From NCBI GenBank assembly GCA_018335675.1, contig JAGXRQ010000003.1, positions 1 to 53,746 on the forward strand: a stretch of 53,746 bases of DNA, given 5' to 3'. Positions 14,301-24,618 of this stretch are shown here, one piece after another; the stretch's first letter is position 1; each line of letters begins with the position of its first letter. The position numbers and the translations under genes were made by a program. This stretch comes from Bacteroidota bacterium. GTDB taxonomy: Bacteria > Bacteroidota > Bacteroidia > Bacteroidales > UBA7960. A model generated the notes under the pieces. That model did no database searches, had not been told where the DNA came from, and was given only the letters and a program-made list of their open reading frames with translations.

Positions 14301-17300
14301 ATGAATTAGGAGATCCTATTGCAAATGCTGCTGTTAGTTTCCCTGGGGTACCTGGATTCCTCATTTTCAACCAAGATGGCTTTGCTTTTGATTTGGCTGC
14401 TATGTTTGAATTTCCATATTATGTTTCAGCTCCGGGATATTTGCCGGTATCAGGTGAAATTGAAGAATTAATGGAAGATAAGGTTATTAATATTGTTATG
14501 ACCCCTTTTATCTCTGCTACAATAGACCCAACTTTCCTTGATATATACGATAATTGGGATAATGAACAATTCCAATATTTTACAATTACTTGGAATGATG
14601 CTGAGGAAGTTATTGCACTTCAGGCTTACTTTGAAGAAATGGAAGAGTGGTTTACTCTCCCAAGTGAAATGTGGGAAGTTGTTGATATAGACGGCTTAAC
14701 AGCTCAGTTTATTATTGATATTGCCCAGTCACCTGGAAAATCAAATTTCAATAAAGAAAATGATTATGTTGTTGAATCAATCGATTGGAGAGTTGTTTTC
14801 AATGCAGGAGAAGCAGCCTATGGAGTTACCAATATTATTGTTAAAACATTCGACCTTGAATTTGTTGTTAAAAACAATAATGGAGATTTAATTCCTGGTG
14901 CTGTTGTTGATTTAATGCCATGGTATGGTGACGACAATGGCGGTGATATTTGGAATTATGAGAATGATCATGTTTTCGAAGTAACAGCAAGAAGAGATTA
15001 TGAATATATTATTACTGCTCCGGGCTATATTGCAGTTCAAAATACAATTCTAAATGTCGAAGAGGATATAGTATTAGAAATCTTTATGGATATTCAAGAG
15101 TATGCAATTATTGGTGTAGGAGCTGGTGATCCTATAATAGTTGACTTTGGAACTGCTCTTGAAGATGTTAATCTTCCTGAAACTGTTTTTGTTCTACTTG
15201 AGAATTCTTCTTGGAATTACCTTGAAGTTACTTGGGACGGAGGAACACCAGAATACAATGCTTTGGCTGCCGGTTCATATGACTTTGAAGGTACGCTAAC
15301 TTTGATTGAGGGCATTATTAACCCCTATGATGCAAAAGCATATATTACAGTAGTTGTTAATCCTGAGAAAGAGATTCTTGCTGTTGCCTCATTTGACCCC
15401 ATTCAAGTATTTATTGGAACTGAAATTGGCAACATCAACTTCCCAACTCACGTTGATGTAACATTAGACGACTCTTCTGTTATCGAACTTGAAGTTATTT
15501 GGGATGGCGGTACACCTGCTTATGATGGTGATGTTACAGATACTTATGTTTTTGAAGGTGATATTCAACTTGTAACAGGCATTATTAATACTGCCGGTCA
15601 TACAGCTTCAATAAATGTAATTGTGTTCGATACTGAAAAAGTTATTGCATCTGTAGAAGAAGTTGATGATATTACTGTATTCTATGGAACTGATTTAGTC
15701 GACATTGTATTGCCAACTCAATTAGTGGCAACAACTGAAGATGATTATTCTTTATTGTTGGGTGTAGTTTGGGATAATGGTACTCCTGTATTTGACTCCA
15801 CTACTCCGGATACATATGTATTTACAGGAACTCTAGCTATGATTCCAGGCTTTATTAACACCAATAATGTTGAGGCAACAGTAAATGTTATTGTTGTTTT
15901 AAAAGAAGTTGTTGCTGTTGCTGAACTAGAGGATATCACCGTAGAGTTTGGAACTGAATTCGGAGATCTTGACCTTCCAATAGCCGTTGAAGTAACTCTT
16001 GATGATGATTCTGTTTTAGAACTTTCTGTTGAATGGAATCCAAGTGTTCCTGCTTATGATGGTAATACCGCTGGTTCATATCCTATTATTGGAACCTTAA
16101 TGCTTATAGACGGAATTGGTAATACTGCCGGTCTAACTGCTTTGATAAATGTTACAGTTGAAGAAGAAGTTGTTGACCTTGAAGTAGTCTCTGTAGCAAG
16201 TATCTCTGATATTACAGTAGAGTTTGGAACAGAATACGGTGATCTTAATTTGCCACCATCTGTAGAAGTAACATTAGATGATTCCTCTGTTATTGATCTT
16301 GCAGTTGAATGGAATTCTGGTACTCCTGCTTATAACGGTAATGTAGCCGGCACATATCCTATTATTGGAACATTAATACTTATTGATGGAGTTGCTAATA
16401 CCGCCGGTCTTACAGCTTTAGTTAACGTTATAGTTCAAGAAGAAGAAGAGGATGTTATAATTTCTGTATTCCCATACATTCAGCCTTTTGAAGATGGAGA
16501 AGCTCCTTATGGATGGAGAGTTCAAGATAATAACGCTGAAGGCTTCGTTTGGGAATTTAATGGAAATTTTGCATTCGCAGATAGCGATGCTGCCGGAAAT
16601 GGTGCCTATGTTCATACTACATTGTACACTCCAATATTCGATGTTTCTTCTTTGAACAACCCTAGATTTAGCTTCGATCATTATTTCCGTATTTACGATG
16701 GCTCTATTGGAAAGGTTAAATATACTACCGATGGAGAAACTTGGAATACAATTGTTGAGTACGAAGAAACAACCGGCTCAGGTACATTCAATTCACCTAA
16801 TTATGCTAGTGCTGTTATTGCAATTGGTGATTTGATAGGAAATGCTAATCAGTTCCAAATTGCGTTTGAATACGATGACCTTGGTAATAGGGAATGGTAT
16901 TGGATAGTTGATAATTTTGTGGTTGAGGAAACGCCTGTTGCAAATACTTTTGAGGTTACTTTTAGCGTACAAGGTGCTAATGGATCAATTGCTGCAACAG
17001 TTGACGGAAACCCAATTGAATCAGGAGATGAAGTTGAAGAAGGTAAAAATATCGTCTTCACCGCTAGTCCGGATACCGATTACATAGTTAAAGCATGGTA
17101 TCTAAATGGAAGTGTTGTAACTGGTGAAACCGGTGTAACATATACCTATAACAATATTACGGCTGATATTGAAGTAAAAGTCGAATTTGAATACAGCAAT
17201 GTTATCAATGATATTGTTACTGCTGATGTAAGAGTTTATCCTAACCCTGCAAGAACCAATGCTTTAATTAATTCTGACTCAAGAATTAAAGAAATTGTTA

Positions 17301-19481: not shown

Positions 19482-19593
19482 CAAATCAAAAAAAATATAT
19501 CACTTTTTTTCTTGCAGCTGTAACTTATGAGTCACTAAATCGTCTTATACTCGAAAAATGACAAAAATGAATTCATTTAAAAACAATAAAACG

Positions 19594-20337
19594 ATGAAAA
19601 CTATAGCGAAAATTAAACTAATGAGCTTTGCAGTTGTGCTTATTGCTACTCTGTTTGCTTTGCAAGGTTGCAACTTAGCTTGCTCAAGAAATGCTGTCAA
19701 AGGTGATGGTAATGTCTTAACAGTAAACTATGATGTTTATGATTTTAAGTCTATTGACATCAGAGGGATGTTCAATGTTATTCTTGCTCAAGGAGAGAAA
19801 GAGCAAGTGGTTTTAGAAACTGATGGAAATTTGCATGAACTTATTAGTGTTGATGTTAAGGATAATAAGTTAATTATAAAAACAACAAAAGAAAAATTCA
19901 TTAACCCAACAAAAATGAATCTTTACATCTATTTCAAAGAAATAAATGTAATATCATCAGGCGGGGCATGCACTATTTCTGCAACATCATGTATAGATGC
20001 TCAATATTTAAGCATTGACTTGAGTGGAGCAACTGAAATTAATTTAGAATTGAAGATTAATGAATTAACAACGAATGCCTCCGGAGCTAGTAATATAAAT
20101 TTTTCAGGTAATGCCAACACACATAATATTGCCTTGAGTGGTGCCGGAAAAATAAAAGCAGATAACCTTTTTACTAATTCAACAAATATCAGGCTTAGTG
20201 GTGCCGGTTCTGCATATGTTCACGCCGATGAATATCTTGATGCTAAAATATCAGGTGTGGGTAGTGTTTATTATGCCGGAGACCCTGATAAGAAAAATAT
20301 TGAAAAAAGTGGTCTGGGATCAGTAAGCAAGATATAA
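19594..20337 (+). CDS. DUF2807 (head GIN domain) lipoprotein
   Basis: A 247-residue protein from ATG 19594. The lipobox FALQGC places Cys26 as the lipidation site. The remainder is a DUF2807/'putative auto-transporter adhesin, head GIN domain' beta-helix: FKSIDIRGMFNVILAQGEK is followed by repeated SGA/SGAG turns (LSGATEI, ASGASNI, LSGAGKI, LSGAGSA, SGVGSV). The domain is widespread in Bacteroidota and its function is not established. In-frame ATGs at 19558 and 19567 would add 9-12 residues before the signal peptide. It lies 73 bp upstream of a second DUF2807 gene, so the pair probably forms an operon. Confidence 0.85.
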   Translation: MKTIAKIKLMSFAVVLIATLFALQGCNLACSRNAVKGDGNVLTVNYDVYDFKSIDIRGMFNVILAQGEKEQVVLETDGNLHELISVDVKDNKLIIKTTKEKFINPTKMNLYIYFKEINVISSGGACTISATSCIDAQYLSIDLSGATEINLELKINELTTNASGASNINFSGNANTHNIALSGAGKIKADNLFTNSTNIRLSGAGSAYVHADEYLDAKISGVGSVYYAGDPDKKNIEKSGLGSVSKI

Positions 20338-20410
20338 TAAAAAAACAATGAAAACTGCGTATAAGTTCCCCTTTGCAACTATGAATGTTAAACTTTTAAA
20401 TTTAAATACT

Positions 20411-21856
20411 ATGAAAACGAACAAATCTTTAAAAATCTTGATATCCTCAGTATTTGCAGGATTATTATTTATGACGAATGTTGTAGCACAAGATGTTACA
20501 GTTAGAGAAACCCCTGAATTTAACGCCATTGAAGTAGGTGGTGTTTTTAATGTGTTTCTTACACAGGCTCCTGTTTATATAGTGGAGTTTGAGTCGCAAA
20601 ACGTCGACCCCGAGAAAATTGAAGCTAAAGTAAAAAAAGGAGTTTTAGAATTGTCTTATGATGGCTCATTGCCAAGAGGCGGAAAAATTATCGCCAAAAT
20701 ATCGGCACCATACTTTAATTCAATCGAAGCATCAGGAGCCGTAAATCTTCAAAGTACAAATGCTATCGAACACGAAAAAATCGTTGTTGAAGCTTCCGGT
20801 GCAACTAAAATTAAACTTAACCTGAATACTGCAAATTTGTCTTCAGAAATATCCGGTGCTTCTAATGTATATTACGAAGGTGTTGCAACTGTACATAAAA
20901 TTGAGATAAGTGGTGCATCTCTTATGAAAGCCGATGCATTAGTAAGTGATGTTGTGATAATTGATGCCAGTGGAGCTTCAAATATTGCTGTAGATGCCAA
21001 GTCAAGTCTTAATGCTGATCTTAGTGGAACAAGCAAACTAACCTATGTTTCTGAGCCTGCATCAAAGACCATTGCAGCAAGTGGATTGTCGAAAGTGGGT
21101 TCGAGAAGCAACGGAGATGTTTCTTATCACGACTCTAAAGATACAATGAGAATTAAAGTTGCAGGTCAAGAAGTCTGGATTATGGACGAAGATGGAAAGA
21201 AATCTAAGAAGACCAAAAAATCTAAGTTTAGAAAAACTTGGAGTGGTATAGATATAGGTATGAATGCTTATGTAAGCCCAATTCAATCACTTGGGATGAG
21301 ACCTGAGGCTGATTTCCTTTCTCTTGAACATAACAAATCATGGGTTATAAATTTCAATGTATTCCAAAAGAGTTTTCCTATTATCAGTAATAATGTTGGT
21401 ATAGTTACAGGTATTGGTTTCGGATTTAATAACTATCGTCTGGCTGATAATACTGTAACTCTTGTATATAACCCCAATGGAATCGATTACATTAATGAAC
21501 CGGATTTAAGAATGAAAAAAAATAAATTGGTTTTAGCTCATTTGAATATTCCTCTTATGATTGAATTTCAAACTCAAGGCCCAAAAAAATATCATCAGTT
21601 TAATTTTGCAGCCGGTGGCAATTTAGGAATATTAATGAATTCATACACAAGGCAGACTTATGATATTGATGGAAAAACTATGAAAAGAAAAGTAGATGAA
21701 AACTTCCACGTTGCACCATTTAGATATGAGGCTGTTGCAAGAATTGGATATGGTGGTGTGCACTTGTTTGCAACCTATGCATTGAATTCCTTCTTCAAAA
21801 ATGATAAAGGACCTGAAATTTATCCATTCTCTGTTGGAATTAGTCTTACCAATTAG
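20411..21856 (+). CDS. DUF2807 domain fused to a C-terminal outer-membrane beta-barrel
   Basis: A 481-residue protein from ATG 20411 (signal peptide ending VVAQ near residue 27). Residues of about 30-220 are a DUF2807 beta-helix (FNAIEVGGVFNVFLTQ, with EASGAVNL, EASGATKI, EISGASNV, EISGASLM and DASGASNI turns). A Lys-rich linker (KKSKKTKKSKFRK) leads to a region from about 275 to the end that looks like a small outer-membrane barrel: GIDIGMNAYVSP, GIVTGIGFGFNNYRL, LNIPLMIEFQTQ, FNFAAGGNLGILM and a strand-like terminus. The architecture suggests a surface- or periplasm-facing beta-helix anchored by the barrel. An upstream ATG (20348) would leave a long leader before the signal peptide. A terminator follows. 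Confidence 0.82.
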   Translation: MKTNKSLKILISSVFAGLLFMTNVVAQDVTVRETPEFNAIEVGGVFNVFLTQAPVYIVEFESQNVDPEKIEAKVKKGVLELSYDGSLPRGGKIIAKISAPYFNSIEASGAVNLQSTNAIEHEKIVVEASGATKIKLNLNTANLSSEISGASNVYYEGVATVHKIEISGASLMKADALVSDVVIIDASGASNIAVDAKSSLNADLSGTSKLTYVSEPASKTIAASGLSKVGSRSNGDVSYHDSKDTMRIKVAGQEVWIMDEDGKKSKKTKKSKFRKTWSGIDIGMNAYVSPIQSLGMRPEADFLSLEHNKSWVINFNVFQKSFPIISNNVGIVTGIGFGFNNYRLADNTVTLVYNPNGIDYINEPDLRMKKNKLVLAHLNIPLMIEFQTQGPKKYHQFNFAAGGNLGILMNSYTRQTYDIDGKTMKRKVDENFHVAPFRYEAVARIGYGGVHLFATYALNSFFKNDKGPEIYPFSVGISLTN

Positions 21857-22004: not shown

Positions 22005-22751
22005 ATGTCAGGTCATAGCAAGTGGTCAACAATCAAAAGGAAAAAGGGAGCATTGGATGCAAAACGCTCCAAAATATTTTCTAAAATTATTAAGGAAATA
22101 ACCGTTGCAGTTAGGGAAAGTGGTAATGACCCTGAAGGAAACCCAAGGCTTCGACTTGCAATTGCAAATGCTAAAGGGGTAAATATGCCCAAAGACAATG
22201 TCCAAAGGGCAATATCTAAAGCCGGTGATAAAGATGCATCTAACTTTACTGAAGTAACTTACGAAGGCTATGCTAATTATGGAGTAGCTGTATTTGTTGA
22301 ATGTCTTACCGATAACTTACAAAGAACAGTTGCAAATATAAGGTCTTATTTTAATAAGAACAGTGGAAAGCTTGATACAAACGGGGCTCTTAGCTTTATC
22401 TTTGACCGAAAAGGAGTTTTCACAGTTAGTAAATCTGTCGTTAAAATTTCTGAAGATGATTTTATGATGGAAGTTATTGATGCCGGAGCAGAAGAGGTTG
22501 AATCTGAAGAGCAGTTCTATATTATTTATACAGCAATGGAAAACTTTGGGCAGATGGTTAAGAAACTTGAGGATATGAATATTGAAGTAGAAAATGCTGA
22601 ACTTCAAAGATTGCCAAAAACAACAATTAAACTCGATAAAGAGTCTGCTGCAAGTGTTCTTAAGCTTATCGAAACTTTTGAAGAAGATGACGACGTGCAA
22701 AACGTCTTCCATAATCTTGAACTAACAGATGAAATGATTGCAGATATGTAA
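22005..22751 (+). CDS. YebC/TACO1-family protein
   Basis: A 248-residue protein. The start MSGHSKWSTIKRKKGALDAKR is diagnostic of the family, followed by NPRLRLAIANAKGVNMPKDNVQRAI, the YEGYANYGVAVFVECLTDN segment and the acidic C-terminal domain ending DVQNVFHNLELTDEM. Members were annotated as transcriptional regulators, and recent work on homologues links them to relief of ribosome stalling. The ATG at 22005 is chosen because MSGHSKW is the invariant N-terminus. The stop codon is 1-2 bases from a heptanucleotide array that fills the space to the next, convergent gene. Confidence 0.95.
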   Translation: MSGHSKWSTIKRKKGALDAKRSKIFSKIIKEITVAVRESGNDPEGNPRLRLAIANAKGVNMPKDNVQRAISKAGDKDASNFTEVTYEGYANYGVAVFVECLTDNLQRTVANIRSYFNKNSGKLDTNGALSFIFDRKGVFTVSKSVVKISEDDFMMEVIDAGAEEVESEEQFYIIYTAMENFGQMVKKLEDMNIEVENAELQRLPKTTIKLDKESAASVLKLIETFEEDDDVQNVFHNLELTDEMIADM

Positions 22752-22752
22752 A

Positions 22753-22823
22753 TTCGACTTTCGACTTTCGACTATCGACTGTTGACTGTTGACTGCCGAC
22801 TATCGACTATCGACTGCCGACTT
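22753..22823. repeat. Heptanucleotide tandem array, 10 units (consensus NNYGACT)
   Basis: Ten consecutive 7-base units: TTCGACT three times, then ATCGACT, GTTGACT twice, GCCGACT, ATCGACT twice and GCCGACT. The last four bases (GACT) are constant and the first three vary. The array occupies essentially the whole gap between the yebC stop and the stop of the convergent GGCT-like gene. No hairpin terminator is present in that gap. Confidence 0.95.
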
Positions 22824-23155
22824 CAAACAATATTTCTACCTGTAAAAACATAGACCTGCTTAACGCTTCCATCTTCAAGAACAATATCTAATTTTTCCCT
22901 CTGATAAGTTGTTGGAACTGCTTCCCATTGATCGGCAATCTTAAGTTGAGATTTATTCATTTTCAAAATAAGACCCTTTACCTCATCTCCCTTTAATGGC
23001 TTTACATAAGGATACTCTTTGTCTGTAAATACTTTCCAGTTTTTTAAGGTTGCATTGCCTACAACAGGCAATATAGTTCCAAATACTTCAAGCTGAACAG
23101 CTCGGTCTTTAAATGTTCCGTATGAGAAAACTAATATAGTCGGTTTTTGTGTCAT
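22823..23155 (-). CDS. Gamma-glutamylcyclotransferase-like (AIG2/GGCT family) protein
   Basis: A 110-residue protein. The N-terminal FSYGTFKDRAVQ is the family's YGTL-like substrate-binding motif, and ADQWEAVPTTYQREKLDIVL holds the conserved acidic residue and the Y-x-R pattern near the C-terminus. GGCT-fold enzymes release 5-oxoproline from gamma-glutamyl amides, but many bacterial members have unknown substrates. No signal peptide is present, so it is cytoplasmic. It is transcribed alone and convergent with yebC. Confidence 0.82.
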   Translation of the reverse strand: MTQKPTILVFSYGTFKDRAVQLEVFGTILPVVGNATLKNWKVFTDKEYPYVKPLKGDEVKGLILKMNKSQLKIADQWEAVPTTYQREKLDIVLEDGSVKQVYVFTGRNIV

Positions 23156-24578: not shown

Positions 24579-24613
24579 TTGAACTTTCAACTTTCAACTT
24601 TTAACTTTTAATT
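24579..24613. repeat. Short heptanucleotide array upstream of nspC
   Basis: Five consecutive 7-base units: TTGAACT, TTCAACT twice, TTTAACT and TTTAATT. They end 5 bases before the nspC ATG. The pattern (variable first three bases, constant end close to AACT) parallels the array at 22753-22823. Confidence 0.85.
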
Positions 24614-24618
24614 TTAAA

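Follow-up and report, generated by a model that had tools for sequence, protein, structure and literature searches.

In the window (the whole stretch of 53,746 nucleotides analysed here), yebC and a gene of the gamma-glutamyl cyclotransferase (GGCT)/AIG2-like family converge on a gap that is occupied by a tandem array of heptanucleotide units (Table 1). Each unit ends in GACT, and the triplets that precede this core are, in order, TTC, TTC, TTC, ATC, GTT, GTT, GCC, ATC, ATC, and GCC; TRF reports the array as 9.9 copies with 85% matches. One spare base lies between the yebC stop codon and the array, none lies between the array and the GGCT/AIG2-like stop codon on the minus strand, and a terminator scan of the window lists no hairpin terminator in this gap. 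An initial, sequence-only reading of the locus had described a ten-unit array that fills the whole gap and leaves no visible hairpin terminator. Both the complete filling and the lack of a listed terminator were borne out, as were the ten units, although the true end of the array is at 22822, one base before the 22823 given in that reading.

Table 1. Genes and heptad arrays of the window considered in this analysis.
Feature	Coordinates	Strand	Basis and remarks
yebC (TACO1/YebC family)	22005-22751	+	Stop codon at 22749-22751; Pfam TACO1_YebC_N and Transcrip_reg
NNNGACT array, ten units	22753-22822	+	Unit reading and TRF; in the minus-strand reading, AGTCNNN begins directly after the stop codon of the GGCT-family gene
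Gamma-glutamyl cyclotransferase (GGCT)/AIG2-like gene	22823-23155	-	GGACT/AIG2-like Pfam; TGA stop codon adjoins the AGTC end of the array
Second heptad array, AACTTTY family	24582-24615	+	AACT at 24582, 24589, 24596, and 24603, then a decayed unit

Elsewhere in the window, long tandem repeats with periods of 108/324 and 276 bases are found at 1605-2232 and 15932-16445. Two adjacent genes at 19558-21856 contain similar head-GIN-like sequence, the second of which has Pfam DUF2807 and an outer-membrane beta-barrel domain.

GACT Arrays and Other Short Repeats in the Source Genome

The source genome (G000) comprises 3,357,965 bases in 150 contigs, of which we sampled 630,616 bases (about 19%) in 66 stretches, mostly around listed pattern matches. 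The sample contains 72 arrays with three or more GACT units, the longest of which has 17; as the stretches were picked from among the matches listed (100 of 113, 100 of 125, and all 86), there are at least 72 such arrays genome-wide. The general pattern GACT(NNNGACT)x3 has 103+93 overlapping matches in G000, compared to 15+12 for the same pattern written backwards. For the YGACT sub-class (YGACTNNYGACTNNYGACT), the corresponding numbers are 62+63 and 0+0, while the contrast is weaker for the AGGACT-like sub-class (RGGACTNNRGACTNNRGACT), with 58+55 matches vs. 20+14 in the backwards control. In a survey of 189 kb, consisting of the window and 11 stretches chosen without looking for arrays, short tandem arrays peak at period 7 (10 arrays, followed by four at period 8, two at period 9, and one at period 6), and none has a period of 4, 5, 10, 11, or 12.

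The contrast between a constant half and a drifting half of the unit, which the sequence-only reading had remarked upon at the window locus, extends genome-wide: the AGTC/GACT core is intact in 440 of 456 units, a figure that is partly built in because detection demands runs of GACT and thus favors intact cores. The broken cores are mainly AGTT (10 units). In the AGTC reading, the main triplets are CTG (122), CTA (50), GGC (43), GAA (36), GAC (25), GTA (24), AAC (22), GAT (21), and GGA (19), and GGG arises only from 11 CCA units (TGGGACT on the other strand). The order of the triplets along the arrays is near random, with 52 of 202 neighboring pairs identical vs. 44.9 after shuffling (p = 0.07) in one set and 79 of 182 vs. 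73.3 (p = 0.13) in another.

Genes in the G000 stretches were called with our own hexamer script, which gave a coding share of 88%. By these calls, 70 of the 72 GACT arrays are intergenic, and the other two share an ORF on contig C86. For 40 arrays, the end of an ORF of coding-like composition is close to the AGTC side, and for 20 it is close to the GACT side; the two sides differ further when only ORF ends within -10 to +30 bases of the array edge are counted (36 on the AGTC side vs. 4 on the GACT side); the remaining 32 of the 72 arrays have no gene end detected on their AGTC side. The commonest stop codon positions are +8 (nine arrays) and +1 (eight arrays), at which TAA or TGA shares its A with the AGTC of the second or first unit, and at 24 of the 40 AGTC-side gene ends the stop codon takes at least one base of the array. 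Placement was compared with random positions in the same gap for the 41 of 72 arrays that have an AGTC-side stop codon and genes on both sides. The AGTC-side stop codon is within 10 bp in 34 of these 41 arrays, vs. 12.4 expected (sd 2.5), and in 17 of 23, vs. 3.2 expected, where at least 60 bp of the gap are free. On the GACT side, a stop codon within 10 bp was found for 5 of 40 arrays vs. 10.8 expected. When only gaps between tandem genes are considered, the AGTC side has a stop codon within 10 bp in 14 of 17 cases and the GACT side in 0 of 16 (Fisher p 1e-6). Start codons facing the AGTC side are -29 to 216 bp away from the arrays, without the tight peak found at stop codons. The sequence-only reading had proposed positional statistics relative to gene ends across the genome, and had held that random scatter, coding sequence included, would speak against it. 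The placement in G000 is strongly non-random and fixed in orientation (34/41 vs. 5/40), and such scatter is not seen, as the arrays are oriented and nearly all intergenic.

Twenty of the 37 AGTC-side genes were scanned and are mostly housekeeping or metabolic genes. Some proteins gain short, array-coded ends (…ES, …KS), whereas native C-termini seem to be kept in several array-bearing genes; for instance, the YchF domain extends to residue 359 of 360 (profile 84 of 84) and the peptidase S46 domain to residue 718 of 720 (profile 698 of 698).

The G000 stretches contain in total 99 period-7 arrays (60 of the GACT type, one in coding sequence) and 23 period-8 arrays. Four further families, whose sequences are unrelated to one another, also have a stop codon within 20 bp preferentially on one side, i.e., GGTATAR (13/20 vs. 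1/12 on the other side), the 8-base TAATGTGN (3/4 vs. 0/1), TAAAAGT (3/5 vs. 0/6), and TATTAGG (1/1 vs. 0/4). The pooled counts (20/30 vs. 1/23, p 3e-6) are descriptive, because some of these families had already been seen near stop codons before counting, and they represent a biased sample, because the stretches were chosen around GACT arrays. Units of all four families contain a stop codon in the sense reading.

The gene-side flanks of the arrays are unshared, while the far sides often border dispersed intergenic repeats. Only a few flank matches include the gene side, such as that between the far side of an array on contig C40 and the gene side of one on C60 (69% over 310 bp). Dispersed modules (AGCTCCCCCTTTAGGGGGCTGGGGGG, repeated GTGACAG, and CTCCGTG-like words) stand beside many arrays in the far flanks, e.g., at loci L069, L072, and L080. 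At loci L050 and L077 (contigs C21 and C93), the gene ends beside the arrays agree over their final 30 bases and are 94.6% identical across 388 bp, a duplicated segment.

Terminators, Folding, and Paired Arrays

We considered whether the arrays replace terminators, and rejected this: terminator-like hairpins follow 2 of 70 array-bearing gene ends, compared with 19 of 202 ends that lack arrays (those of convergent genes, or of tandem genes spaced by at least 80 bp), a difference that is not significant (p = 0.12). In the AGTC direction, a terminator-like hairpin was found for only 5 of the 72 arrays, so a GC-rich hairpin followed by a T run is not a general feature. The EF-G gene is an exception, in that the last units of its array pair with one inverted unit that is followed by seven T (AAGTCCTAAGTT-GAAA-AACTTAGGACTTTTTTT; L081 near 4030, contig C117); an ordinary terminator-like hairpin was found by the scan at EF-G in five of nine relatives. 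A search of Rfam with 10 array-bearing loci (78,070 bases) gave no matches.

The AGTC strand of the window array is predicted to fold at -26.4 kcal/mol (z -7.0) and the other strand has a z of -4.65, yet 15 of 100 column-permuted versions fold equally well. Among arrays of at least five units, the median z of the AGTC strand is -1.86 for YGACT (27 arrays) and +2.18 for AGGACT (20 arrays), and the medians for column-permuted arrays that fold as well are 39 and 88%, respectively. An RNA hairpin as the general principle was therefore rejected, since the AGGACT class folds worse than its shuffles and permuted arrays often match the real ones.

In another Bacteroidota genome, G441, four pairs of arrays fold at -57 to -81 kcal/mol, with z of -1.5 to -2.3 relative to shuffled triplets and 6 to 40 of 200 shuffles as good, and one array pair in G169 has a z of -2.4. 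The paired G441 arrays (L332-L336) form the arms of near-perfect stems of dozens of bp, in which several of the differences, judged by eye, are G-U wobbles. Only five array pairs in G000 qualified for this comparison, and shuffling leaves the complementarity of their triplets about as good (z -1.0 to 1.3). Triplet complementarity between inverted partners thus holds in G441 and fails in G000, and was rejected as a general feature. That the window array marks transcript ends, as the sequence-only reading had suggested it may, is only indirectly supported.

Arrays at Orthologous Gene Ends and in Other Bacteroidota

Nearly all relatives of the window yebC carry a Bacteroidales or Bacteroidetes label, and on this basis the uncultured source bacterium is probably a Bacteroidales. 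Within the family, 42 of 47 genomes have a yebC gene, and 30 of these loci were read, one of which is that of G000; 28 of the other 29 are readable after the stop codon, and none of these 28 relatives has GACT units there. Instead, the yebC stop codon is immediately followed by 8-base arrays in two species of a different genus, G004 and G010, and G007 has a weak GGTTTGG heptad. At a more distant yebC locus, L113, AACT heptads are present at the gene end; among 80 loci of this kind, no other has at least four in-phase copies right at the end of yebC. G001, the one other species of the same genus that was searched, keeps the order yebC, GGCT, and saccharopine dehydrogenase (the GGCT homolog has 112 residues, vs. 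110 in G000). It has only one base between the two convergent stop codons, which indicates that the window array is extra DNA rather than a remodeled spacer. The median length of convergent gaps that hold GACT arrays is 95.5 bp, or 30 bp when the arrays are subtracted (n = 20), which is close to the median of 25.5 bp for those without 7- or 8-base arrays (n = 38).

G001 contains no GACT array of five units anywhere in its genome. A GACT array is also absent after ychF in seven relatives, after EF-G in nine, and after proS in nine, with G001 lacking one at all three. A different heptad, AGTAATC, follows proS in G004, and weak heptads are present at the trmD end in G007 and G013 (seven loci, one cut at a contig end and one partial). 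Conservation of the array between relatives, which the sequence-only reading had tied to its proposal, is thus not supported at the yebC, ychF, EF-G, and proS ends. The arrays are lineage-specific, and one gene end can bear different families.

Five-unit GACT arrays occur in 11 of 59 relatives and in 54 of 395 Bacteroidota genomes, in many of the latter as perfect microsatellites. Degenerate GACT arrays with zero matches to the backwards control were found in G228 (48+37), G169 (14+7), G441 (2+5), and G284 (1+1). The backwards control itself, a TCAG core at a 7-base step, is abundant in G249 (320+185), G391 (109+34), G193, and others. GACT as a special phylum-wide core was rejected on this ground, as the reversed control also matches many genomes, sometimes far more often, and GACT is better regarded as one of several cores in Bacteroidota. 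With crude gene calls, poorer than those for G000, stop codon anchoring outside G000 is weak: the AGTC and GACT sides have 5/25 and 3/25, respectively, in G004, G010, and G007, and 7/29 and 2/29 in the more distant G228, G169, G441, G284, and G154.

Possible Origins and Comparison With Described Repeats

In G000, units of 7 (sometimes 8) bases from several unrelated families sit right after stop codons, with one orientation per family. We give about even odds to the view that the window array is one of a group of stop-anchored tandem repeats whose seeds form at gene ends and which expand as units are copied. Such an array would originate where a stop codon or its immediate surroundings offer a short match; in the GACT family this is mostly a TAA or TGA that shares its last A with AGTC. 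It would then lengthen by copying of 7-base units in replication or repair (slippage or template switching), kept in register by the AGTC tetramer, and would be retained in that the few bases after a stop codon may be the least harmful place for added DNA in a compact genome. As the unit length is not a multiple of three, stop-bearing units give a stop codon in any frame, so that arrays can enter the last codons of a gene. The presence of different families at the same gene end by lineage (yebC in G004, G010, and L113; proS in G004) supports stop-seeded growth, and perfect GACT microsatellites in several other Bacteroidota are what an origin by slippage predicts. Simple slippage alone is insufficient, because it predicts blocks of identical units and the unit order is not significantly blocky. 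Also counting against unit copying, neutral drift should affect all seven positions equally, and anchoring in other genomes is weak (5/25 vs. 3/25; 7/29 vs. 2/29). Copying alone does not explain the orientation and the intact AGTC beside a drifting triplet; both could be explained by a strand asymmetry tied to transcription, or by a protein that recognizes AGTC. A supply of stop codons does not explain the orientation, since stops are present in either reading, and some units, among them AGTCGGC, AGTCGAA, and AGTCGAC, contain no stop. Overall, the arrays may be mostly tolerated, possibly with a role at the 3' end.

Such a role is central to the main rival reading, that the arrays are a selected 3'-end element, in which post-stop AGTCNNN in mRNA or DNA might be bound by a protein, or might function in termination or in protection of mRNA 3' ends, as proposed for REP elements. 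Orientation and zero-distance anchoring at stop codons, a conserved core beside a free NNN, and the same shape in unrelated families are all consistent with selection, as are the hairpin and T run of the EF-G array, the long stems of paired arrays in G441, and the mostly housekeeping or metabolic nature of the 20 genes scanned out of 37. We nevertheless find selection rather doubtful, given that the arrays are lineage-specific, absent at the orthologous ends tested, and altogether missing from the same-genus G001, that their genes have no function in common, and that AGTC-direction hairpins accompany only 5/72 arrays while 32/72 lack an AGTC-side gene end. The four G441 pairs (z -1.5 to -2.3) and the G169 pair (z -2.4), together with head-to-head array pairs in G000, raise the alternative that the arrays derive from long inverted-repeat hairpins at gene ends, as present or relict arms whose complementarity is maintained via hairpin-templated copying. 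This seems improbable for G000, where only five pairs qualified, with z between -1.0 and 1.3, and the majority of arrays are unpartnered; the window array reaches z -7.0 alone, but 15/100 permuted versions equal it and the AGGACT median is +2.2.

Insertion of a transposable or retro-element behind genes, with the arrays as its part or footprint, would account for the extra DNA relative to the 1-bp gap in G001 and for the many arrays that adjoin dispersed repeats on the side away from the gene. We give it little credence, as the flank homology is patchy (40-390 bp, with differing repeats) and mostly begins past the array, the window locus shows neither a transposase nor an element of fixed length, and the arrays differ in size, with 3 to 17 units. 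Very improbable is an ordinary microsatellite that lies in the gap by chance; despite perfect GACT heptads elsewhere in Bacteroidota and TCAG heptads that are as common (320+185 in G249), it is at odds with dozens of arrays in G000 that have one core and a free triplet, and the strong oriented anchoring at stop codons refutes it for this genome, unless the gene calls are badly wrong. More speculatively, and in our view unlikely, gene ends may be the landing or growth site of interchangeable 7- and 8-base arrays, with the stop codon rather than the repeat as the invariant; a process tied to the end of transcription or translation, for example at DNA or RNA exposed behind the last ribosome, would both seed and orient them. 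A seeding process at stop codons of this kind would let the yebC end gain different families in different lineages.

Accounts of bacterial heptamer arrays have so far treated them as curiosities that are scattered, lack a function, or form G-quadruplexes. Strict oriented anchoring of several unrelated families in one genome makes their origin testable, be it selection at transcript ends, mutation that follows transcription, or dedicated machinery. For annotators, it would be a warning that array sequence makes up some C-termini (…ES, …KS) and many convergent gaps.

Among known repeats, REP elements are palindromes of 20-40 bp downstream of genes, with proposed roles in termination and mRNA stability; GACT arrays share the location downstream of genes, but their units are 7-base direct repeats and not palindromes. 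The STRR sequences of heterocystous cyanobacteria are degenerate tandem heptamers, as GACT arrays are, with different units.

In Rehm et al. (2015; PMC4692102), the heptamer arrays GGGNATC of Xanthomonas and GGGGA(C/T)T of Nostoc are described as many and intergenic, most of the downstream ones being within 50 bp of the stop codon on the coding strand and some overlapping it. Their placement depends on the strand, and they are variable in length and associated with no gene class or known function, and their G runs form G-quadruplexes in vitro, according to the same text. GACT arrays resemble them as described there in being 7-base tandem repeats that are intergenic, many, variable in length, and near stop codons on a preferred strand, and we note that the rotated Xanthomonas sense unit, AATCGGG, resembles AGTCNNN. 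Unlike the arrays in that account, GACT units have a free triplet and no regular G runs with their quadruplex potential, are anchored at zero to few bases from the stop codon, coexist with several other families in one genome, and occupy sites that, where tested, are not common to relatives. Heptamer arrays near stop codons are already known from that account (PMC4692102), the closest published case. In the literature searched, with few subscription journals, neither a degenerate GACT family nor the coexistence of multiple stop-anchored families within a single genome was found to be reported.

Long simple sequence repeats, of which heptanucleotides are the most abundant class in most genomes and which are attributed to polymerase slippage (Mrazek et al., 2007, as described in PMC4679880), differ by that description from GACT arrays, which have a degenerate core, an orientation, and stop codon anchoring. 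TAACTGA heptamer direct repeats have been reported in Beggiatoaceae, some Cyanobacteria, and five Bacteroidetes, mainly just before start codons in the forward orientation, by MacGregor (2015; PMC4679880). As portrayed there, they are like GACT arrays in being intergenic heptamers with many sets per genome, sporadic across lineages, and mixed with other heptamers, while GACT-family units differ from TAACTGA and show no start codon peak. Only the AACTTTY array of the window resembles the placement before start codons described there: it stops 3 bp short of the ATG of a downstream gene, and it is missing from the corresponding gap of the relative G004. Similarly, AACTTTT arrays on contigs C129 and C62 are located 4 to 13 bp before start codons.
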